Source of the DNA: an uncultured Clostridia bacterium
Lineage (GTDB): Bacteria > Bacillota > Clostridia > Christensenellales > Borkfalkiaceae
NCBI GenBank assembly: GCA_944368155.1
Contig: CALVWW010000003.1
Location: 62,001-126,000, forward strand
Direction: 5' to 3'
DNA: 64,000 bases
The notes below the pieces were generated by a model. The model saw only the letters and a program-made list of their open reading frames with translations. It was not told the DNA's origin and ran no database searches. A program made the position numbers and the translations under genes. Shown here one piece after another: positions 42,068 to 52,682 of this stretch. The stretch's first letter is position 1. Every line of letters begins with the position of its first letter.

Positions 42068-43102
42068 TTGGAAGAAAAAGAAGTAAACGCGGCAGACGGA
42101 AAGATTTCCGACGGCGTAAAGAAATCAAAAAAGAGCAAACTTATAACGGTCTTAGCCGTAGCGGCGAGCGTGATTGCCGCACTCGGCGTATTCATAATGG
42201 TGTGGTACATGGGCGACAGCTACCCCGATTTTGAGAACAGGTTCCGCTCGGAAACTGAGATACCGGGACTCGACGAGGGCTTTGTTCCGCAGGGTCTGGG
42301 TAACTATGGCGACAGGCAATTTGTGAGCGGGTATATGAACGACGGCAGCCCTTCGAGGATATACGTCATCGAAGACGGCGAAACGGCGGGATATGTGACC
42401 GTTAAGCTGAGCGACGACAGCATCTATTCGGGGCACGCCTGCGGCGTTGCCACCAACGGAGTGCGCATATGGCTGGTTTCGGAAGGTACTGTATACGTTT
42501 TGAACTATGCCCGCACGCTTGAGGCAGCCGAAGAGAACGGCGAAGTGGAAATAACAAACAGCTGGAACGCAAACTGCGCCGCCGACTTCTGCTATTACCG
42601 CTCCGGATATCTGTATATCGGCGAGTTCTACCGCAAGGGCAATTACGAGACCGACGAGAGCCATAGATTGACCACGCCTGCCGGAGATGAAAATACGGCG
42701 CTGATACTGCGCTACTCCTCCGCGCTCACCACCCCCACCACTCCCGGCAGAGCTTTCAGCATAACGGGTGAAATTCAGGGCATGGCCTTGAACGACGACG
42801 GCACAAGGATAATCCTTTCGCAGAGCTACGGGCTTAAAAACTCGCACATACTGACTTACTCCTTCAACACATCAAGTACGGCGCACAGCGACGACGTGCT
42901 CGAGATAAACGGCTACGACGTCACGGTTTACTATCTCGACAGTGCCAATCTCCTTTCCGATTACGAGATTCCCTGCATGAGCGAGGGGCTGTGCTCAGAC
43001 GGGGACAGAGTTTATGTGCTGTTTGAATCTGCAAGCGTGAAGTATCGCACTTTTGTGCGCGAAAGGCTGAAAAATATTTATTCTTTCAGAATAAGAACAT
43101 AA
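42068..43102 (+). CDS. Membrane-anchored beta-propeller-like protein
   Basis: 344 residues, starting at a TTG with a good GGAG. A basic N-terminus and one membrane helix (about residues 25-46) place the rest outside. The outer part has repeated beta-blade-like stretches (FVSGYMNDGSPSRIYVIEDG, GVRIWLVSEGTVYVLNY, GEIQGMALNDDGTRIILSQ) as in propeller proteins, and ends LCSDGDRVYVLFESAS. No family or ligand was recognised. Confidence 0.65.
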   Translation: MEEKEVNAADGKISDGVKKSKKSKLITVLAVAASVIAALGVFIMVWYMGDSYPDFENRFRSETEIPGLDEGFVPQGLGNYGDRQFVSGYMNDGSPSRIYVIEDGETAGYVTVKLSDDSIYSGHACGVATNGVRIWLVSEGTVYVLNYARTLEAAEENGEVEITNSWNANCAADFCYYRSGYLYIGEFYRKGNYETDESHRLTTPAGDENTALILRYSSALTTPTTPGRAFSITGEIQGMALNDDGTRIILSQSYGLKNSHILTYSFNTSSTAHSDDVLEINGYDVTVYYLDSANLLSDYEIPCMSEGLCSDGDRVYVLFESASVKYRTFVRERLKNIYSFRIRT

Positions 43103-43125
43103 AAAACGCTTTGCGGCGTTATGCC

Positions 43126-43168
43126 GTAAAAAACGGACGGAGGCTTACCTGCTCCGCCCGTTTTTTAC
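43126..43168. terminator. Terminator after the propeller-like gene
   Basis: GTAAAAAACGG(A)CGGAG pairs with CTCCGCCCGTTTTTTAC. T-rich ends on both strands. Confidence 0.7.
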
Positions 43169-43282
43169 GTCAAATAAATTAACCGCATTTAACTTATAAG
43201 CCGTTTTGCAAAACATAAGCGCAAATGAGGGTATGGGATAAAAAATTTTAAGCCTTCAATGCAAAAAATCGGGCGATAAATA

Positions 43283-43311
43283 TTTACTAAAATGCAAAAA
43301 TGTTTTATAAT
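43283..43311 (+). promoter_or_regulatory. Promoter of the Gx-rnf operon (leaderless)
   Basis: TTTACT (43283-43288), 17-bp spacer, TATAAT (43306-43311), then 8 bases to the ATG at 43320. The transcript should start on or next to the start codon. Confidence 0.65.
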
Positions 43312-43319
43312 GTTTGCGT

Positions 43320-43874
43320 ATGAACGGCCGCTTCCCTGCAAAAAAAATTGCTGTGCTGGCGCTCTTTTCAGCGCTGGGACTGATAGTTTTTATAATAGAA
43401 AATCAATTTCCCCCGCTGTTCGTGCCGGGGGCAAAGATGGGGCTTGCAAACATATTCTCCCTTTCGGCACTAATTCTGTACGGACCGGTTGAGGCTTTTA
43501 TAGTAGTCGCTGCGCGCACGGTGCTCGGCTCCCTTTTTGCAGGCAATATTTCCATGCTGATGTACAGTTTTACGGGGGGAGTTATTTCGCTGGCGCTTTC
43601 GGCTATACTTATGTATACCGCCTACCCGAAAGTGAGCGTCATGGCGGTGAGCATTGCCGCGGCTGTTCTGCACAACATCGTTCAGAATGCGGTGTATGTG
43701 CTTATCACGGGAACGACGCTCATGTTTTCATACATGCCCTACCTTGCGCTAATCGGCATACTCTCGGGCGCGATTGTCGGGGCGATAGTCACCATAATAT
43801 TCAAAAAAGTGCCGGAAAGCATTTTTATGCGACTGGCATACGACAAGCCGAAAAATTTTGACGAAAAAAAGTAA
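43320..43874 (+). CDS. Gx transporter family membrane protein
   Basis: 184 residues with about five membrane helices. It starts ...KKIAVLALFSALGLIVFIIENQFPP, with FVPGAKMGLANIFSL and a YSFTGGVISL helix, the pattern of the Gx transporter family (often misnamed heptaprenyl diphosphate synthase component I). In Bacillota such genes often neighbour ApbE, NusG_II and FMN-binding genes, as here. A role in flavin or quinone supply to the redox complex is a guess. A hairpin and 65 bp separate it from rnfC. Confidence 0.88.
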   Translation: MNGRFPAKKIAVLALFSALGLIVFIIENQFPPLFVPGAKMGLANIFSLSALILYGPVEAFIVVAARTVLGSLFAGNISMLMYSFTGGVISLALSAILMYTAYPKVSVMAVSIAAAVLHNIVQNAVYVLITGTTLMFSYMPYLALIGILSGAIVGAIVTIIFKKVPESIFMRLAYDKPKNFDEKK

Positions 43875-43891
43875 ATTTTAATACGCATCAG

Positions 43892-43920
43892 GCACGGGTT
43901 TAAACAAACAAAACCCGTGC
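43892..43920 (+). other. Hairpin before rnfC
   Basis: GCACGGGTTT pairs with AAACCCGTGC around an AAACAAACA loop, just upstream of the GGAGG of rnfC. It lacks a T-run, so it is more likely a processing or stability element than a terminator. Confidence 0.45.
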
Positions 43921-43939
43921 AAAACCAAGGAGGTAAATT

Positions 43940-45250
43940 TTGAAAGCTGTTAAAGGCAGAATGCTTTTCGGCGGCGCGCACGTGCCGGACAATAAGTCCC
44001 TTGCAAAGAACGCGCCGATTGAAGAGCTGCCGGAACCGCCTGAGGTTAAAATCGCCATGAGCCAGTCCCTTGGCAGACCGGCAGTGCCCTGCGTGAACGC
44101 GGGCGACACCGTTCTTAAAGGCCAGCTCATTGCACGCGCGGACGGAGCCGTATCATCGGACGTGTTCGCAAGCGTAAGCGGCGAGGTGACCGGGGTATGC
44201 GAACTTGAAAACGAGTGCGGCAACAAAGACACCTTTGTGTGCATACGCTCTGACGGCACGGGAAAAACGCAGTATCTTCCGCCGCTTGAAAACCCTTCCG
44301 CAGAGCAGATAGTCGAAAGGGTAAAAGAAGCCGGCATCGTAGGTCTTGGCGGCGCGGGCTTTCCCACCGCCGTTAAACTGCGGCCAAAGACGCCCGTTGA
44401 CACGTTTATTGTGAACGGCGCCGAGTGCGAACCGTACCTTACCTGCGACTACCGCGTGATGATTGAGCGTACCGACGACGTTATGCGCGGAGCGCGCTAC
44501 ATTGCAAAGGCGCTCGGCGTAGAAAATATTATAATCGGTATAGAGCGGAATAAGCCCGACTGCATAGAGGCGTTTGAAAAATACAGCGACGTAAAGGTCG
44601 TTTCATTAAAAAAGATATACCCTATGGGCGGCGAAAAACAGCTGATATACAGTGCCACGGGCAGGAAGATAAAGCTCGGGCAGCTTCCCGCCGACGTCGG
44701 CGTTATCGTGAACAACGTAGCCACATGCCTTGCCGTATGCGAGGCGGTTGAGACAGGCAAACCAGCCTGCGAGGCAATTCTTACCGTTTCGGGCAAGTCG
44801 GTAAAAAAGCCTGCAAACGTAAAGGTGCCTGTAGGCACACCGATTTCTTACATCATTGAACATTGCGGCGGCGAGGCCGAGGCTCCCAAAAAAGCTGTGC
44901 TCGGCGGCCCGATGACGGGCGTTGCCATAAAGAGCTACGATAACTACGTTAAAAAGACAACGAGCGGAATTCTGCTCTTATCAGAGAAGGAGGCCGCGGC
45001 AGAGGAACCCACTCCCTGCCTGAACTGCGGCCTGTGCGCGGACCACTGCCCCATGCATCTCATGCCTATGAATACTGCGTTCTATTCCTCAGCGGGAGAT
45101 ATCGACAATGCAGTAAAACTCGGCGGCGTTATGTATTGCATTGAATGCGGCGTATGCGAATATGTATGCCCCGCAAAGAGACCGCTCATTCAGGCGATAA
45201 GAAACACAAAGGCCGCCGTGCGCGCAAAGAATAAAGGAGGCAAACAATGA
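43940..45250 (+). CDS. rnfC: Rnf complex subunit C
   Basis: 436 residues. This peripheral subunit takes electrons from NADH: Gly-rich NADH/FMN region VGLGGAGFPTAVKL near residue 135 and NGAECEPYLTCD near 158, then two [4Fe-4S] sites CLNCGLCADHCP near 360 and CIECGVCEYVCP near 400. The start is a TTG after GGAGG. It is first of rnfCDGEAB, a ferredoxin:NAD+ oxidoreductase that builds a Na+ or H+ gradient. Confidence 0.97.
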   Translation: MKAVKGRMLFGGAHVPDNKSLAKNAPIEELPEPPEVKIAMSQSLGRPAVPCVNAGDTVLKGQLIARADGAVSSDVFASVSGEVTGVCELENECGNKDTFVCIRSDGTGKTQYLPPLENPSAEQIVERVKEAGIVGLGGAGFPTAVKLRPKTPVDTFIVNGAECEPYLTCDYRVMIERTDDVMRGARYIAKALGVENIIIGIERNKPDCIEAFEKYSDVKVVSLKKIYPMGGEKQLIYSATGRKIKLGQLPADVGVIVNNVATCLAVCEAVETGKPACEAILTVSGKSVKKPANVKVPVGTPISYIIEHCGGEAEAPKKAVLGGPMTGVAIKSYDNYVKKTTSGILLLSEKEAAAEEPTPCLNCGLCADHCPMHLMPMNTAFYSSAGDIDNAVKLGGVMYCIECGVCEYVCPAKRPLIQAIRNTKAAVRAKNKGGKQ

Positions 45251-46401
45251 ATAGCAGCATAGTTATCTCCACCCCTCCCCACGTCAAATCCAAGCGCACG
45301 ACAAAAAAGATAATGCTCGACGTTCTGATTGCGCTTGCCCCCGCGGCAATCTGCGGCATCGTTTACTTTTTGTGGGACGCGCTGATACTTGAAGTTACAT
45401 GCGTGGCCTTTGCCGTACTTGCTGAGTTTGTTTACTTTTTTATAGCCAAAGGCGGATTTAACGTCCGCTTTGCAAACAAAGAGACAAAGACGCTGGCAAA
45501 GGACATAAAACAGTTGAAAAAGAGCGGGCAGCCTGCGGACGAAGCCTGCGCGCAGTTGAAAGACAAGCGCTCGCAGCTGAGAAAAGAGGCCTTTTCAAAG
45601 TCGGGTGCGGTCTGCAAAAAGTGGGCAAGGCAATTTGACTTTACATCCGTTGTTACAGGGCTCATCCTCGCGCTCATACTGCCCCCCACCGTGCACTGGT
45701 ACGAGGCGGCCATAGGCGCGGTATTTGCCATAGTAGTAGTTAAAATGGTGTTCGGCGGCACGGGGAAAAACATTGCCAACCCTGCCTCTGTCGGAAGGGT
45801 GTTCATGCTCATATCCTTTGTTATCACAATGAATATCTACCCTGCCGCAAACTTCGGACCTATCGACGGCGCAACCCTCGGGACAGGCTCGACCTATCTT
45901 TCGGGCGCGCTGCTCACCGACAACCCCAACCTTGAAGCAATGTCGCTTTTAGACCTGTTTTTAGGCACCGGCGTTGCCGGATGCATAGGCGAAACGTGCA
46001 AGCTTGCGCTTATCGCAGGATATATATACCTTTGCGTGCGCAGAGTAATCAAATGGTGGCAACCCGTTTTGTTCCTTGCTGTAACAGGGCTTATGACCGT
46101 TGCATTGAACGGAGACTTTGCATTCTTCCTGCCCTCCATTCTCTCCGGCGGCGTTATGTTCGGCGCTATATTTATGATGACCGACTATGTAACCTCACCC
46201 AAGGGGCTGTATGCACAGATTGTTTATTATGCGCTTGGCGGCCTTCTCGTGGCAGTTTTAAGGCACTTCACTCACCTCGAGGTCACTTCGTTTGTCATAA
46301 TCATAATGAACCTCATCGTACCCCTTTTGGACAACTTTATAAGACGCAGGCCTTTCGGATATGTTAAAGAAAAGAAAAATAAGGAGGGTGCCGGAAAATG
46401 A
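45247..46401 (+). CDS. rnfD: Rnf complex subunit D
   Basis: 384 residues, polytopic, with a covalent-FMN motif region around GTGSTYLSGA near residue 215 (family: S-G-A-T-like). It overlaps rnfC by four bases. Compared with typical RnfD (about 310-350 residues) there is an extra basic cytoplasmic stretch at about 72-130 (LAKDIKQLKKSGQPADEA, KDKRSQLRKEAF) between early membrane helices. GGTGKNIANPASVGRVF is the conserved core. Confidence 0.96.
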   Translation: MNSSIVISTPPHVKSKRTTKKIMLDVLIALAPAAICGIVYFLWDALILEVTCVAFAVLAEFVYFFIAKGGFNVRFANKETKTLAKDIKQLKKSGQPADEACAQLKDKRSQLRKEAFSKSGAVCKKWARQFDFTSVVTGLILALILPPTVHWYEAAIGAVFAIVVVKMVFGGTGKNIANPASVGRVFMLISFVITMNIYPAANFGPIDGATLGTGSTYLSGALLTDNPNLEAMSLLDLFLGTGVAGCIGETCKLALIAGYIYLCVRRVIKWWQPVLFLAVTGLMTVALNGDFAFFLPSILSGGVMFGAIFMMTDYVTSPKGLYAQIVYYALGGLLVAVLRHFTHLEVTSFVIIIMNLIVPLLDNFIRRRPFGYVKEKKNKEGAGK

Positions 46402-48668
46402 GCGAAACCAGCGGAAAAGAAAAGAAATCGTTTACCGTGAAGGGCTTTTTTAAGAGTACCTCCTTTAAGTGTATAGCCGTGCTGCTTGCAATCGTGCTCA
46501 TATCGGGCATATTGCTTACGATATGCAACAGTCTGTTCTACGTTTCGGCAGACGAGAGATTGCAAAGAGTGCTCTCAAACATATACGGAAGAGAAGTTAC
46601 GGCGACGGAAATTGTTCTGGATGAACCCAATATTGAAAGCTATGAGATAGTAACCGACGGCTCCACTTCGGGTTACGGCGATTACATGCCGGAAGGCGTT
46701 AAAGACGGTTCGCTTTTCAGACATAAGACCCAGAGCGATTTGCTTTCGCTTTTAAATCTTGACGGCGAATTTACAACGGGAAATCTCGACGGCTCGCTTT
46801 CAACAGGTGCAACATACTCGAACTTTTTGTGCACCTATGCAGCTTTATTCGCCGCTGTCAACTATCAGAACGCGCTTGACGGCAGGGAGGTTGCCGTGCT
46901 TTCGAGGACAAAATATATCGACCTTGAAAAGACGGCATACTCGGTTGACGGAAGCAATGTGACTTTCGATATCACCACCACATCCTATTCACGCGCAGGT
47001 GTATTTGAAATAGACGTCACGGTAGGCGAAAACGGAGTAATATCCTCCTACACAATCGTTACAAACGGCTCATCGCCCGAATCGTTTGGCGACAGAATGG
47101 ACGAATCGGTGCTGAACGGTTCACTTTATATCGGCAAAGACGGGGCGGCAATGCTCGAACTGTTCGCCGAGACCGGCATGACGATAGACAACACCGACGA
47201 AGTACTCGTAACAGGCGCAACATATTCAAATTTTTTGTGCGCTTACGCTGCGCTGTTCGCTACTGCAAACTATGACGCCATAATAAACGACGGCGCTGAA
47301 ATTTCGGAAGAGCTTGAATATACGCAGTATATCAACACCGCAGAGACAACAGCAACTGTTTCCGAAGGCGGCATAGACTTCACCGTAGTTACGACAGAAT
47401 ACAGCAGAGCGGACGCCTTTACCATAGATATAAGAGTGCGAGGCGGCTTTGAAACGGAGTATACAGGCGGCAATATAAACAGCGCCTACTACATCGAGGA
47501 CGACGGAAATTACCTTGTAAACGCTACGGGTACGGGCGGCTTTTCAGGCGGCACGGTGACATGCTGGGTAGTTATCAACATGAACGACGGCACCGTGAGC
47601 GGCGTAGGCAAAGTCGTTATCGACAGCAACTCCGGACAGTCGTATATAAGCAGAGTAAACAAAGACAGCGTGCTTTCGCAGTTCGAAGGCGAGTTCGAAG
47701 AGGGCGAGGAAGCTTCGGCATGGACGGGCACGGGCGCAACCATGTCGCTTACGGCAATTACCGGCGCCGTAAATACCGCGCTATCCTTTGCCAGGGAAGA
47801 GCTTGCCTCAAATACAAATCCCGACCCGCTGGCAGGCTATGAATATACCGACTACATCAACGGCTATCTCACCACCGTAACGACGGACGGAAGCAATGTA
47901 AACTACAGAGTCGTTACCTCTGCGTTTGCACACGCACAGTCGTTTACAATAGACATTACTGTAGGCACAGGCGGCGTTATTTCCGATTATGAAATAATAA
48001 CAAACGGCTCCACTGCTGACAGATATATTGAGGCAATGCCTGAAAACGTGAAGGACGGTTCGCTGTATATAGGCAAGGATGCAGATGCCATATTATCTAT
48101 ACTTTCAGATAACGGCATTTCGTCGGACGGCGTATTTGAAGACGGCGCTGACGGCAATTTGCATACAGGCGCGACATACTCCAACTCCCTGTGCACATAT
48201 GCGGCGCTGTTTGCGGCGGCAAACTATGATTATGCGCTTGAAAACGCCGTGCAGTATGAATACACTCAATATATCAATCTTGCAAACACCTCATATTCTG
48301 TAAACGGCAATGAAGTAACCTACAAAATAGCCACGCAGGGCGGTATAAGGGGAAGCTTTTCTATAAGCATAAAGGTTGCAAACGGCACAGTGACACAATT
48401 CGAAATATTATCGAACGGCTCTTCGCAAATGCCCGAACAGGACTACGGCGAACTTATGGACCAATCTGTATTGAACGGCTCGCTGTTCGTCGGCAAGAAC
48501 CTTGAAGAACTAAAAACGCTTTTTAACGGCGAAGGTTTTGAATGGGGCGACATCGACGGCGAGTTGCACACGGGCGCAACGATTTCCAATTTCCTGTGCG
48601 CATATTCGGCGCTGTTTGCCACCGCCAACTACAATACCGTGCTTGATAACGCAGGAGGTGTGCTATGA
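46398..48668 (+). CDS. rnfG: RnfG with five FMN-binding domains
   Basis: 756 residues, versus about 200 for ordinary RnfG. One N-terminal membrane helix (about 25-48) leads to an exported chain with five TGAT flavinylation motifs at 136-139, 272-275, 445-448, 590-593 and 725-728; Thr139, 275, 448, 593 and 728 are the expected FMN attachment sites ([ST]GATx[ST]). Units 1, 2, 4 and 5 resemble each other strongly (TGATYSNFLCxYAALFAxxNY after an NGSLYIGKD segment); unit 3 (GTGATMSLTAITGAV, preceded by GTVSGVGKVVI) is nearest the classical RnfG domain. It sits in the normal rnfG slot, and ApbE is encoded 2.8 kb away. Confidence 0.93.
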   Translation: MSETSGKEKKSFTVKGFFKSTSFKCIAVLLAIVLISGILLTICNSLFYVSADERLQRVLSNIYGREVTATEIVLDEPNIESYEIVTDGSTSGYGDYMPEGVKDGSLFRHKTQSDLLSLLNLDGEFTTGNLDGSLSTGATYSNFLCTYAALFAAVNYQNALDGREVAVLSRTKYIDLEKTAYSVDGSNVTFDITTTSYSRAGVFEIDVTVGENGVISSYTIVTNGSSPESFGDRMDESVLNGSLYIGKDGAAMLELFAETGMTIDNTDEVLVTGATYSNFLCAYAALFATANYDAIINDGAEISEELEYTQYINTAETTATVSEGGIDFTVVTTEYSRADAFTIDIRVRGGFETEYTGGNINSAYYIEDDGNYLVNATGTGGFSGGTVTCWVVINMNDGTVSGVGKVVIDSNSGQSYISRVNKDSVLSQFEGEFEEGEEASAWTGTGATMSLTAITGAVNTALSFAREELASNTNPDPLAGYEYTDYINGYLTTVTTDGSNVNYRVVTSAFAHAQSFTIDITVGTGGVISDYEIITNGSTADRYIEAMPENVKDGSLYIGKDADAILSILSDNGISSDGVFEDGADGNLHTGATYSNSLCTYAALFAAANYDYALENAVQYEYTQYINLANTSYSVNGNEVTYKIATQGGIRGSFSISIKVANGTVTQFEILSNGSSQMPEQDYGELMDQSVLNGSLFVGKNLEELKTLFNGEGFEWGDIDGELHTGATISNFLCAYSALFATANYNTVLDNAGGVL

Positions 48669-49315
48669 ACAAATATGCAAAGATAAGTTTAGACGGACTC
48701 ATCTTCCAGAACCCCACCTTTATGCTGGTGCTGGGCACCTGCCCCACTCTCGGACTTATTTCATCCGCCTCCAGCGCGGCGGGCATGGGCCTCACCGTAG
48801 TGGTAATTCTCACGCTGAGCAATATGCTGATTTCTGCGCTGAGAAAGTTGATTCCAAACGCCGTGCGAATTCCGTCATATATCGTTATAATCGCGACGCT
48901 TGTTACCCTTGCCAGAATGGTGCTTGAAAAGTTTGTGCCGGACCTGTACGACAGTTTGGGCGGATTCCTCGCACTTATTGTCGTTAACTGCATAATCCTC
49001 GGCAGAGCGGAGGCGTTTGCAAGCAAGCATACGGTGATTGAATCGGCGGTCGACGGCGTGGCAACCGGCCTCGGCTTTACCGCCGCACTCACAATAATGG
49101 GCATTATCTGTGAATTTTTGGGTTCAGGCTCAATATTCGGCCTGCAGATAATGGAATTTACGATAGGCGCGTTTGCAAACCCCGCTGGAGCCTTCCTTGT
49201 TTACGGCACCTGCATTGCAATATTCGTTTATATCATGGACACAATAGAGCGCGTGCGCAGGGAAAAGAAATACAGGCCTTTGACGCACGAATCTCTCGCA
49301 CAGGAGGTGGCGTAA
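48665..49315 (+). CDS. rnfE: Rnf complex subunit E
   Basis: 216 residues, six membrane helices. NPTFMLVLGTCPTLGL (with the conserved Cys of the membrane [2Fe-2S] region) near residue 15 and IVVNCIILGRAEAFAS near 105 are typical. It overlaps rnfG by four bases (ATGA). With RnfA it forms the membrane core. Confidence 0.96.
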   Translation: MNKYAKISLDGLIFQNPTFMLVLGTCPTLGLISSASSAAGMGLTVVVILTLSNMLISALRKLIPNAVRIPSYIVIIATLVTLARMVLEKFVPDLYDSLGGFLALIVVNCIILGRAEAFASKHTVIESAVDGVATGLGFTAALTIMGIICEFLGSGSIFGLQIMEFTIGAFANPAGAFLVYGTCIAIFVYIMDTIERVRREKKYRPLTHESLAQEVA

Positions 49316-49930
49316 ATGGGAACATTTATAGCGATAGTCCTTGCCGCCGTGCTCACAAATAACTTTATTACCGTGCGCACATACGGCATCTGCCCCTTTT
49401 TGGGCGTTTCGAAAAAGACAAACTCGGCCGTCGGCATGGGCATTGCCGTGACCATAGTCATGGCCATTGCCACGGCAGTGACATATCCTCTGTATGAGTA
49501 CGTAATGAAACCGCTCAATATAGAGTTTTTAGAGATTATTTTCTTCATCTTCATCATCGCAGCGCTCGTGCAGATGATTGAAAAGGTAATACAGAAACTC
49601 TCTCCTCCCCTCTACAACGCGATGGGCATATACCTGCCGCTTATAACCACAAACTGCGCCGTTCTCGGCGTGTGCGAGCTGGTTATCGGCGACAACTTTA
49701 TGGAGAACACGGTAGGGGTCGCTGCGGCGATGAACACCGGTTGGGCGGTTTTATACGCCGTGTTTGCAGGGCTGGGATTTACGCTCGTAATGATTATAAT
49801 GAGCGGACTTCGCGAAAGGATAGGCAACTACGGAGAAATGCCCAAAGCTTTAAAGGGCTTCCCCATAGCCATGATAACGGCGAGCATCATCTGCATGGCA
49901 TTCACCGTGTTCAGTTCCATTCAGGTTTGA
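49316..49930 (+). CDS. rnfA: Rnf complex subunit A
   Basis: 204 residues, six membrane helices. Conserved parts: AAVLTNNFITVRTYGICPFLGVSKK near the N-terminus (with Cys) and LITTNCAVLGVCELV near 105. It follows the rnfE stop directly with no gap. It is homologous to RnfE in inverted topology. Confidence 0.96.
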   Translation: MGTFIAIVLAAVLTNNFITVRTYGICPFLGVSKKTNSAVGMGIAVTIVMAIATAVTYPLYEYVMKPLNIEFLEIIFFIFIIAALVQMIEKVIQKLSPPLYNAMGIYLPLITTNCAVLGVCELVIGDNFMENTVGVAAAMNTGWAVLYAVFAGLGFTLVMIIMSGLRERIGNYGEMPKALKGFPIAMITASIICMAFTVFSSIQV

Positions 49931-49940
49931 GGAGGGCGAT

Positions 49941-50774
49941 ATGAATTTACTTGTTAGCTTAGGCGAATTAAACGCCGAAACCTGGAAAACTGTCGGAATT
50001 GTTGCGGGTATTCTTGCGGGAATAGCGCTTGTACTCGTTATAGCCATTCTCGTTATAGGCAAAGTGTTCAAAGTGGACGTAGACGAAAAGGTTACGGCTA
50101 TACTTGAAAATCTTGCCGGTGCAAACTGCGGCGGGTGCGGCTGCTCGGGTTGCAGCGGTTTTGCACAGAAACTGGCCTGCGGGCAGGGCGACCTTGCCGA
50201 CTGCCACGTCACCTCGCCCGAAAAGAAGGCGGAAATTGCCAAGCTTTTGGGCATTGAAGTGAAAGACGAAGAACCTACCGTTGCGATAGTGCATTGCAAC
50301 GGCGGCGCGGAAAATGCGCCCGACGCATTTGAATACAACGGAAACCCCACATGCAAGGCATGCAATACGCTGCTCGGCGGCAACAAACTGTGCAAATCGG
50401 CCTGCCTCGGCTGCGGCGACTGCGCTTCGGTCTGCCCTGAAAAGGCAATAAAAGTCGAAGGCAGGCTTGCAAAAGTCATACCTGAAAGATGCATTTCGTG
50501 CGGGGCGTGCATAAACGCCTGCCCCAAACACATAATAGAGCGCATCCCTGCAAGCGCGCCCGTCTATGTGGCCTGCTCCTCCCATTGCCCCGGCAAAGAG
50601 GTACGAGCGCAGTGCAAAGTTGGCTGTATAAGTTGCGGAATATGTGCAAAGAGCTGCCCGCACGGCGCAATAACCATGGTCGACAATCTGCCTGCATTCG
50701 ATTATTCAAAATGCACGGGGTGTTTGACCTGTGTTTCGAAGTGTCCGAGAAAGATTATTCTTGTAAGGGAATAA
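49941..50774 (+). CDS. rnfB: Rnf complex subunit B (multi-cluster ferredoxin-like)
   Basis: 277 residues. An N-terminal membrane helix (about 17-41), then a four-Cys Fe-S domain (GANCGGCGCSGCSGFA...DC), then cysteine motifs CKACN...CKSACLGCGDCASVCP, CISCGACINACP, CISCGICAKSCP and CTGCLTCVSKCP: four [4Fe-4S] ferredoxin-type sites besides the first cluster. It is the electron entry from ferredoxin. It is last in the operon and followed by a strong terminator. Confidence 0.96.
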   Translation: MNLLVSLGELNAETWKTVGIVAGILAGIALVLVIAILVIGKVFKVDVDEKVTAILENLAGANCGGCGCSGCSGFAQKLACGQGDLADCHVTSPEKKAEIAKLLGIEVKDEEPTVAIVHCNGGAENAPDAFEYNGNPTCKACNTLLGGNKLCKSACLGCGDCASVCPEKAIKVEGRLAKVIPERCISCGACINACPKHIIERIPASAPVYVACSSHCPGKEVRAQCKVGCISCGICAKSCPHGAITMVDNLPAFDYSKCTGCLTCVSKCPRKIILVRE

Positions 50775-50791
50775 TAATCATTAACGGCCGG

Positions 50792-50830
50792 CAAAAGCCC
50801 GCCGCGGAAAAATTCCGCGGCGGGCTTTTG
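50792..50830 (+). terminator. Terminator of the rnf operon
   Basis: CAAAAGCCCGCCGCGGA pairs perfectly with TCCGCGGCGGGCTTTTG. The convergent NusG_II gene ends 57 bp further. Confidence 0.8.
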
Positions 50831-50886
50831 AACGTTATAAAACTAATTTTGCATTAAATACTCCCGATTTTAAGGCAGAGCATCTC

Positions 50887-51387
50887 TCAGCCGACGGGCA
50901 GAATTCCGTCGATATCAGAGAACCCTGCCGGCACTATCTGAAAATTGTGCGGAGTACATACAATGACGCCTGAATTATCTGTAATGGCCGGAGTATGAAC
51001 GCAGTCGCGACGGGCAGAACAATCGCTCTCTGTAACAGCGACTGAACGTGCGGATTTATCGATAAATATTATGTTATAGTCTGAAGGCAAGGTAAGGGAA
51101 CCGCCGTCGATACAGAAGGTTATCATAAGGCCGTTGCCGTCTTCGCTGTAAGCATATTCCACATTGTCTTCCATATATACGGTCAGTTCGTCGGAGGAAA
51201 AGTCATAATAAAAAACCGGCTCGTTATTGTACTGCCCCTCCACCGCCGAAAGCGCGCTGTTGTCGCCCGTTAAAAATACAGCGAGGAAAACAGCGGCCAC
51301 TATCAGTGCGATGGCGCCGTATATCAGGATATCCCAGATTTTAAAAAACCTGTCCTGTTTAAGCTGGTCGACCTTTTTTTGTGACAT
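50887..51387 (-). CDS. NusG domain II-containing membrane protein
   Basis: 166 residues. One membrane helix (about 20-45) anchors an outer beta domain. The C-terminal part with CSARRDCVHTPAITDNSGVIVCTPHNFQI (key cysteines and the C-x-H/P-N ending) matches the NusG_II domain seen in many Bacillota proteins encoded with FMN-binding and ApbE genes. Its cysteines could form a disulfide or redox site. It lies between rnf and apbE, convergent with rnf, and is downstream of apbE on the same strand. Confidence 0.85.
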   Translation of the reverse strand: MSQKKVDQLKQDRFFKIWDILIYGAIALIVAAVFLAVFLTGDNSALSAVEGQYNNEPVFYYDFSSDELTVYMEDNVEYAYSEDGNGLMITFCIDGGSLTLPSDYNIIFIDKSARSVAVTESDCSARRDCVHTPAITDNSGVIVCTPHNFQIVPAGFSDIDGILPVG

Positions 51388-51452
51388 AAGCCTCCGCCTT
51401 TAAAAGCGCACCCGATTGACTGAGGCGCTTAGCTCCGCCGATTGGCAACGCA

Positions 51453-52682
51453 CTATCTGGTGCCGGTAAATACTACATTCCCGTTCGCATCGATTGTGCA
51501 GGCAACGGTATAATTCCCGCGCATAATATTGTATTCGCCTTCTGGAATATTTGTAATGAGCAAGTATTCGCCGAGAGAATTCTGATAAATAAACGTTATT
51601 TTAAGCCCCGACGCTTTTACGACGTCGGAATTTATATACTCAATCGCCCTGTCAAGCCCCATTGCCATAATTGCCGTTGTGCGCGCGTCGGCCTCTGCGG
51701 CGGTGCCGCCTATGCAGTTTGCCATTACCATGCCGGTCTGTATGGGCGAGCCCGTAAACGGGTCGATTATATGACAGTAGCGCGTATCTTCGATTATATA
51801 ATAATTTTCATAATCGCCGCTGGTGGAAAGATTAATGTCGGACGCATAGAGCGACATAAAGTAATCGTCGTCGGTGTTATCGTCTTCAATACTGGTACGA
51901 GGGTCGCGAATCTCAATGAGCCAGTCGCCGTTATCGCTTGCATAGGTCTTGTTTGCAGCCATGCTCGACGAACCGTAAGAAAAACTGGAGCGGTCGTAAC
52001 TTTCGCTCCGGATATAATCATCTATGATATCTACAGCGTAACCCTTTGCTATGCCGCTCAAATCGATTGCCAGAGAGTAAGTTACGCCCTCCACCTCTAC
52101 CGTTGTCTGCGGCTTAACAGCATAGTATCTTCCGTTATTAACTGAAAGCCCGATATCGGCAAAACTCTGCGACAGAGTCTGAAATGCCTTTACATACTCG
52201 TCATCGGGCAACTGAGCCTTAGTATTTTCCCTGTCATAGGGACGGGTTACTCCCTCCGGACGAGCAGCAAAACCATAGAGGTCGACGCTGTAATAAACGC
52301 CGGCATTGTAATAGCCCTCCGTTTCCTCATACATATCGAGGGCAAGAGATAAAACCGTGTAGGCTTGCCCGCTTATTTCAACGGTGTCGCCGGGGGCAGC
52401 TTCGTTGAACCGGCAAACGTCTGAATCTTCCACCGTAGTGCTGAAGATATTTTCAAATGATTTGAGCATATCTTCCACTTCAGCACCGATATCGATGGCA
52501 ACCTGTTTTTGCTCGTCGGTAAAAAATTCGCCCTCGAGGACGAGAGTTGCATATGTGCCGAAAGAGGTATATGTGCGTCTGTAACGCGAGAAGTTGTTTG
52601 AATTGGATGAAGTACAGCCGCTGAATATGGCCGCGCATGCCGCAAGTGACGCGGCGGAAACTGCAAGTAATTTTTTTATCAT
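51453..52682 (-). CDS. apbE: FAD:protein FMN transferase (ApbE lipoprotein)
   Basis: 409 residues with a lipoprotein signal (FSGC, Cys22 region), so it acts outside the membrane. Motifs: SFENIFSTTVEDSDVCRFNEA near 95, LAIDLSGIAKGYAVD near 208, CHIIDPFTGSP near 305 and the Mg-binding ADARTTAIMAMG near 335. The enzyme transfers FMN from FAD to the Thr of S/T-GAT motifs. Being 2.8 kb from an RnfG with five such motifs, it is the natural enzyme for loading them. Confidence 0.95.
   Translation of the reverse strand: MIKKLLAVSAASLAACAAIFSGCTSSNSNNFSRYRRTYTSFGTYATLVLEGEFFTDEQKQVAIDIGAEVEDMLKSFENIFSTTVEDSDVCRFNEAAPGDTVEISGQAYTVLSLALDMYEETEGYYNAGVYYSVDLYGFAARPEGVTRPYDRENTKAQLPDDEYVKAFQTLSQSFADIGLSVNNGRYYAVKPQTTVEVEGVTYSLAIDLSGIAKGYAVDIIDDYIRSESYDRSSFSYGSSSMAANKTYASDNGDWLIEIRDPRTSIEDDNTDDDYFMSLYASDINLSTSGDYENYYIIEDTRYCHIIDPFTGSPIQTGMVMANCIGGTAAEADARTTAIMAMGLDRAIEYINSDVVKASGLKITFIYQNSLGEYLLITNIPEGEYNIMRGNYTVACTIDANGNVVFTGTR

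Follow-up and report, generated by a model that had tools for sequence, protein, structure and literature searches.

The Rnf complex is an energy-conserving pump in many anaerobes, and the RnfG subunits of Clostridium tetanomorphum and Acetobacterium woodii carry one flavin each. In the standard complex, electrons from ferredoxin reach nicotinamide adenine dinucleotide (NAD+) by way of the RnfG and RnfD flavins (PMC12052999). Rnf clusters with a multi-flavinylated RnfG have also been described, with Christensenellales named among the bearers, and a second electron path has been proposed for them (Meheust et al., 2021, eLife, PMC8238504). Here we describe an RnfG of 756 residues encoded in a window of 64,000 nucleotides of DNA from an uncultured Clostridia bacterium of the Borkfalkiaceae (assembly GCA_944368155.1, contig CALVWW010000003.1, positions 62,001 to 126,000). 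It shares its canonical domain with the RnfG proteins of C. tetanomorphum (7zc6) and A. woodii (9eri), whose solved chains have only 187-207 residues, and carries in addition four domains of a divergent family, each with a predicted site for covalent flavin mononucleotide (FMN).

This protein resembles those of Meheust et al. in having more than one predicted FMN-binding domain, in coming from the same order and in the idea of a branched electron path. The initial annotation, which knew of no RnfG of this kind, must therefore be corrected, as multi-flavinylated RnfG, including that of Christensenellales, is already in print (PMC8238504). There are also differences. The domains in the available text of that paper are PF04205, whereas only one of the five domains in the window RnfG is visible to Pfam, and the Christensenellales subset described there carries a multi-heme domain, whereas the window RnfG contains no CxxCH motif. 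A multi-heme RnfG is thereby ruled out here, and no open reading frame (ORF) with two or more CxxCH motifs occurs in the scanned loci. Tandem covalent FMN domains, with predicted export and a membrane anchor and flavinylated by ApbE, are likewise found in SaFMN3 and CbFMN4 (Tong et al., 2023, PMC10339131), but the available description does not present these proteins as Rnf subunits, and their domains are about 85 residues long and more than 80% identical, as against about 130-150 residues and 42-56% identity for the repeat (R) domains of the window RnfG. A larger FMN-bind subtype, FMN-bind2 (Huang et al., 2024, PMC11334425), was found by BLAST and occurs in multiple copies; it is about 160 residues long and has one insertion region between beta1 and beta2 and another between beta3 and alpha1. 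R, with its about 130-150 residues, is comparable to it in description, as a larger domain in multiple copies. What is new here is the Pfam-invisible subfamily, the cassette with its predicted permutation and the repeated independent growth described below; neither Pfam-negative repeats nor a permuted cassette in RnfG was found in the searched literature on RnfG and flavinylation, as far as the texts without their supplements go.

The gene is identified as rnfG by its place between rnfD and rnfE, and it lies inside an operon of the order rnfC-D-G-E-A-B, confirmed as an Rnf operon by Pfam and NCBIfam (Table 1). Its product contains exactly five [ST]GA[ST] motifs, all of them TGAT, with the acceptors Thr139, 275, 448, 593 and 728 spaced by 136, 173, 145 and 135 residues; a chance origin is ruled out, since composition alone would give 0.25 motifs. 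Units 1, 2, 4 and 5 are mutually 42-56% identical over 79-141 residues (BLASTP). For unit 3, similarity to units 2, 4 and 5 (37-44%) is confined to its first ~50 residues, its flavin half having no BLASTP match to them. Pfam FMN_bind (PF04205) is recognized as a single stretch, at residues 384-463 within unit 3, with 23.4 bits against a gathering cut-off of 22, and a PF04205 search of the genome at E <= 0.001 misses the 756-residue protein altogether. Two profiles, C (canonical, from unit 3) and R (from units 2, 4 and 5), were iterated over ORFs taken from the window and from its relatives, and these read the protein as half-R, R, N-terminal half of R, C, R, R. Judged by motif and by homology, for which the evidence is weak but consistent, more than one domain of this RnfG is related to FMN_bind, and every such domain bears a motif for flavinylation and a predicted flavin. 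The reading of this frame in the initial annotation, as an RnfG with five predicted flavin sites in which units 1, 2, 4 and 5 form one family and unit 3 is canonical and ancestral, agrees with the motif scan and with both profiles. The motif places of its unit layout also stand, but not the boundaries it implied, because residues ~305-350 are a displaced N-terminal repeat half that is missing from unit 1.

Units 1 and 2 together form a cassette of 274 residues (~77-350), which an alignment of 35 RnfGs places as an insert between the membrane stalk and the canonical domain, and units 4 and 5 form a two-domain tail after unit 3. The insert is seen in four rows of this alignment, and the RnfG of genome G140 is a fifth carrier. 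The N-terminal membrane helix and stalk, both placed by the structure model, are common to other RnfGs, with six residues invariant across the 35 sequences (F17, F23, L29, L40, E53 and R57). The cassette opens with the flavin half of the repeat and closes with the strand half, which would make its first domain a circular permutant. Models were built with AlphaFold for the insert alone (24-row alignment, mean predicted local distance difference test score (pLDDT) 85.1, predicted template modelling score (pTM) 0.66) and for the whole RnfG (35-row alignment, mean pLDDT 84.3, pTM 0.59). Of the five FMN-binding folds expected in the initial annotation, the repeat fold is seen in units 2, 4 and 5, as four strands and short helices followed by a long helix that begins at TGAT, whereas unit 1 is incomplete, with one strand of this fold only. 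Three strands of matching length lie at 318-322, 325-332 and 342-348, in a block with pLDDT 90-97 in the whole model, and would supply those that unit 1 lacks, although the pairing itself is inferred. Both the FMN_bind-type fold of the R domains and the permutation are thus predictions. Circularly permuted FMN-bind1 double-flavin proteins with an embedded second domain have been described, but there the C-terminal helix is displaced, and in the window cassette it would be three N-terminal strands (PMC11334425). An assembly artefact is ruled out, as the layout recurs in four other genomes (63-70% identity) and identity among the units is no more than 42-56%.

The R domains are likely homologous to FMN_bind. 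In a set (A1) of 54 aligned R domains, from which one further R domain was left out, PF04205 was matched by 10 (best E 2.4e-4) and the next Pfam family by 3. Two R domains of G053 and one of G029 exceed the PF04205 gathering cut-off, as does one of G032 when its neighbours in the frame are included. Outside the order, in a class sample of 391 genomes, the R profile gave eight weak matches (E 2e-5 to 4e-4), seven in frames of 189-198 residues and the remaining one in a frame of 896 residues; both of the two loci that were read encode an ordinary RnfG between RnfD and RnfE. The acceptor is Ser or Thr in 52 of the 54 A1 rows and Gly in the further R domain outside A1. In addition, an R domain (residues 66-192, with TGAT) is fused to the N-terminus of ApbE in G029 (L037:13832-15604). 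Flavinylation of the R domains is probable. R is also the more widespread signal: PF04205 matches occur in 29 of 93 genus genomes and R profile matches in 70, suggesting that covalent flavin domains are undercounted when Pfam is used to find them. A further observation concerns a cysteine six residues past the acceptor threonine, which is present in 44 of the 54 R rows (residues 145, 281, 599 and 734 in the window) and may lie near the flavin; the canonical domain of the window RnfG has no cysteine at this position.

Several results weigh against an RnfG with five working flavins. The aspartate of the usual Dxx[ST]GAT motif is present in none of the five units, as is also the case for many canonical domains of the genus. 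The flavin-site loops of units 1 and 2 (125-136 and 257-273) have pLDDT below 50 in the whole model, and the flavin-site blocks have 59-85 in the cassette-only model. Foldseek matched the whole model to solved RnfG (7zc6_G, probability 0.98 and template modelling score 0.41 on the target; 9eri_G, probability 0.94), yet with high E values of 0.19 and 0.31 at ranks 11 and 18. For the cassette model, no FMN_bind structure was among the top 50 PDB matches and none of 399 Foldseek matches reached E <= 0.001. In PDB sequence searches, the canonical-domain profile found 7zc6 RnfG at E 0.0015 and the R profile found RnfG only at E 0.6; when the R and canonical profiles were compared with each other, the probability was 14.7% over 18 columns (2.6% in global mode), and unit 4 of the window RnfG, taken by itself, is without a match in Pfam. 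Moreover, the three R domains in the RnfG of G016 (L042:2265-4286) are alike and all have Gly in place of the acceptor, that protein being devoid of [ST]GA[ST], and five of the six R domains of G042 read NGSS or NGST. A long RnfG can thus persist without consensus sites, and flavin sites can be lost or altered.

These results might suggest that the extra domains are mainly structural, that is, spacers or surface repeats whose flavin was lost or never used, with Thr448 alone modified. The altered sites of G016 and G042 would fit this, as would the divergence of the window R domains beyond Pfam detection and the weak link of R to FMN_bind in fold and profile searches. However, the retention of the motif within the cassette clade, the acceptor in nearly all A1 rows and the R-ApbE fusion all speak for flavin-bearing domains, and we regard a mainly structural role as improbable. 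Of the 17 motifs that can be aligned in the four relatives with the cassette, counting those of unit 3, 16 have stayed TGAT at identities of 63-70%, and the other, TNAT, retains the acceptor threonine. Full conservation is seen in four of the five TGAT windows, as against 7.4% of 685 four-residue windows, and the fifth is in the top 15.5%.

The genus genomes are relatives labelled as the same genus as the window, which includes Candidatus Coproplasma, assigned to Christensenellales, Borkfalkiaceae (PMC8035907). Close matches come from two named records, Candidatus Coproplasma stercoripullorum (DVHB01000129.1), where a 922-residue RnfG is identical to that of G140, and an uncultured Clostridia bacterium (CALVQA010000004.1). 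In a sample of 297 genomes of the order, R occurs in 13: nine lie within the genus (the window genome included) and one within its family, the remaining three being weak matches from elsewhere. RnfG domains were tallied in the loci of 40 genus genomes, which were picked from search hits and are hence biased to R bearers; two loci are cut by contig ends, loci L005-L030 stand outside the tally, and a fragment of G057 with R and C pieces, whose contig ends beside rnfE, was counted as part of rnfG. On this basis RnfG has one domain in 7 genomes, two in 19 and three or more in 14, with a maximum of seven in G042, and the cassette is present in 5 of the 40. The initial annotation proposed growth by duplication, which the 33 multi-domain RnfGs of this tally and a repeat tree both support.

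In this tree, which covers 40 repeat halves, there is a group of units 1 from five species (82/89), units 2 of five species form one group with the G016 repeats inside it (93/81), and units 4 of four species join unit 5 of G140 (85/83), the ultrafast support of 82, 93 and 85 being modest. Units 5 branch around the unit-2 group, and repeats cluster by protein in G028, G036, G016 and, for five of six, G042. Since units 1, 2 and 4 group by position and other repeats by protein, the layout of the window RnfG is likely older than its clade, and multi-domain RnfG appears to have grown repeatedly and independently in the genus. The extra length could also be explained by drift, in which tandem duplication by recombination brings no benefit and is tolerated as long as the docking domain works. 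The very variable domain number and the within-protein clusters, a sign of separate expansions, would be expected under drift, but the grouping by position across species in the cassette clade, modestly supported as it is, implies that the layout persisted as sequence identity fell to 63-70%; drift alone is in our opinion quite unlikely. Long RnfGs between RnfD and RnfE are not confined to this family, as other families of the order have a 544-residue protein in G342 and one of 736 residues in G299 (L092:7062-9272). The latter has five GAT motifs, four of them in the context RAGATLTS, and is apparently an independent multi-flavin RnfG.

Taken together, gene order, domain content and motif conservation describe an RnfG in which a canonical docking domain has been joined by four domains that are likely of FMN_bind type; whether ApbE flavinylates these and they provide an electron side branch is, in our estimation, an evenly balanced question. 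In such a scheme, unit 3 would keep the standard Rnf electron step beside RnfD, and the added domains, a two-flavin cassette between stalk and docking domain and a two-domain tail, would receive FMN from the neighbouring ApbE, so that each of the five threonines is occupied. A cassette that begins and ends in the same domain could close as a lobe, and the permuted cassette would then leave the stalk-to-docking distance nearly unchanged. Electrons from ferredoxin that arrive at the canonical flavin might pass on to the other flavins of RnfG, which would serve, next to the route back to NAD+, as a side branch outside the membrane or as a small reservoir there. Given a size of 26 x 26 x 44 A for the flavin domain SaFMN3-D2 (PMC10339131), five domains could reach some way into the wall. 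The electron wire or capacitor suggested in the initial annotation is a hypothetical role.

Alternatively, the extra domains could bear flavin and yet serve as a reservoir, or as an oxygen or peroxide sink at the surface of an anaerobe, with no wire to a specific acceptor. The reduced form of the three-flavin protein SaFMN3 reacts with O2, and its flavins share one potential of -184 mV, from which the authors infer no directionality (PMC10339131); moreover, an extracellular reductase was found among none of the 10 proteins scanned by Pfam and NCBIfam at 42068-52682. That the domains are fused to RnfG and not secreted points to exchange with the pump, and the reservoir or sink role seems unlikely to us. 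The side branch can also be put in a wider form, which is tentative and on balance doubtful: the R subfamily would have built multi-flavin RnfGs repeatedly across the Coproplasma genus, with a self-closing permuted cassette in one clade, and the pump, with six outer covalent flavins (five on RnfG and one on RnfD), would be a branch point venting electrons of ferredoxin or NADH to the cell surface. If the outer flavin subunit can take the form of an extended chain, the Rnf pump of fermenters could be linked to surface acceptors, and the varied RnfG domain number within one genus would be a natural series for testing such coupling.

As for the surroundings of rnfG, the genes in Table 1 are recognized by Pfam and NCBIfam. 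A sixth outer flavin is likely on RnfD, whose predicted site is TGST in the window and GAT in 31 of 44 aligned RnfD rows. The genome (1.73 Mb, 94.9% complete) has a single ApbE match, and a whole-protein search at E <= 10 gave no second relative of the 756-residue RnfG in it.

Table 1. Genes of the rnf locus and domains of RnfG, with positions in the window
Feature	Residues	Positions	Strand	Basis or remark
Hpre_diP_synt_I / ECF-like membrane protein		43314..43874	+	Pfam; precedes rnfC here and in many relatives
rnfC		43940..45250	+	TIGR01945 (NCBIfam)
rnfD		45247..46401	+	Pfam PF03116; own predicted flavin site TGST
rnfG		46398..48668	+	756-residue ORF, ATG start; five predicted FMN-threonine sites; between rnfD and rnfE
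RnfG N-terminus: short tail, membrane helix (~21-46), stalk helix (51-63)	1-76	46398..46625	+	alignment, model
Unit 1, flavin half only	~77-161, TGAT 136-139	46626..46880	+	98 bits to R profile, matching its positions 42-128
Unit 2, complete R domain	~167-302, TGAT 272-275	46896..47303	+	R profile 159 bits, positions 3-128
Displaced N-terminal half of repeat	~305-350	47310..47447	+	42 bits to R profile, matching its positions 2-52
Unit 3, canonical RnfG FMN_bind domain	351-470, TGAT 445-448	47448..47807	+	PF04205 23.4 bits; canonical profile 149 bits
Unit 4, complete R domain	~481-614, TGAT 590-593	47838..48239	+	R profile 156 bits
Unit 5, complete R domain	~620-749, TGAT 725-728	48255..48644	+	R profile 140 bits
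rnfE		48665..49315	+	Pfam, NCBIfam
rnfA		49316..49930	+	Pfam, NCBIfam
rnfB		49941..50774	+	Pfam, NCBIfam
NusG_II-domain protein		50887..51387	-	Pfam; apbE neighbour here and in many relatives
apbE (FAD:protein FMN transferase)		51453..52682	-	Pfam PF02424, 170 bits

Finally, it may be mentioned that R domains also occur outside RnfG. Separate multi-flavin proteins of 721-1209 residues with 5 to 9 motifs combine R with other FMN_bind units (L034:12949-15114, L088:10225-13323, L040:1582-5211 and L086:7120-9923), and the next recognized gene is apbE in L034, L040 and L088. A separate R-bearing protein of this kind is encoded in seven genus genomes whose loci were read (G026, G029, G030, G035, G046, G058 and G127) and, by motif count alone, in G001; the RnfG of each of these eight has exactly one R domain. 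Among the 14 genomes with an RnfG of at least three domains, none showed such a protein in the loci read, the profiles not being sensitive. A trade-off between a long RnfG and a separate multi-flavin protein was considered and set aside for this reason and because the genomes are related. In G029, the R-ApbE fusion directly follows a multi-flavin protein of 1189 residues, and PF04205 points to further separate long frames, for example, in G027, G056 and G128.

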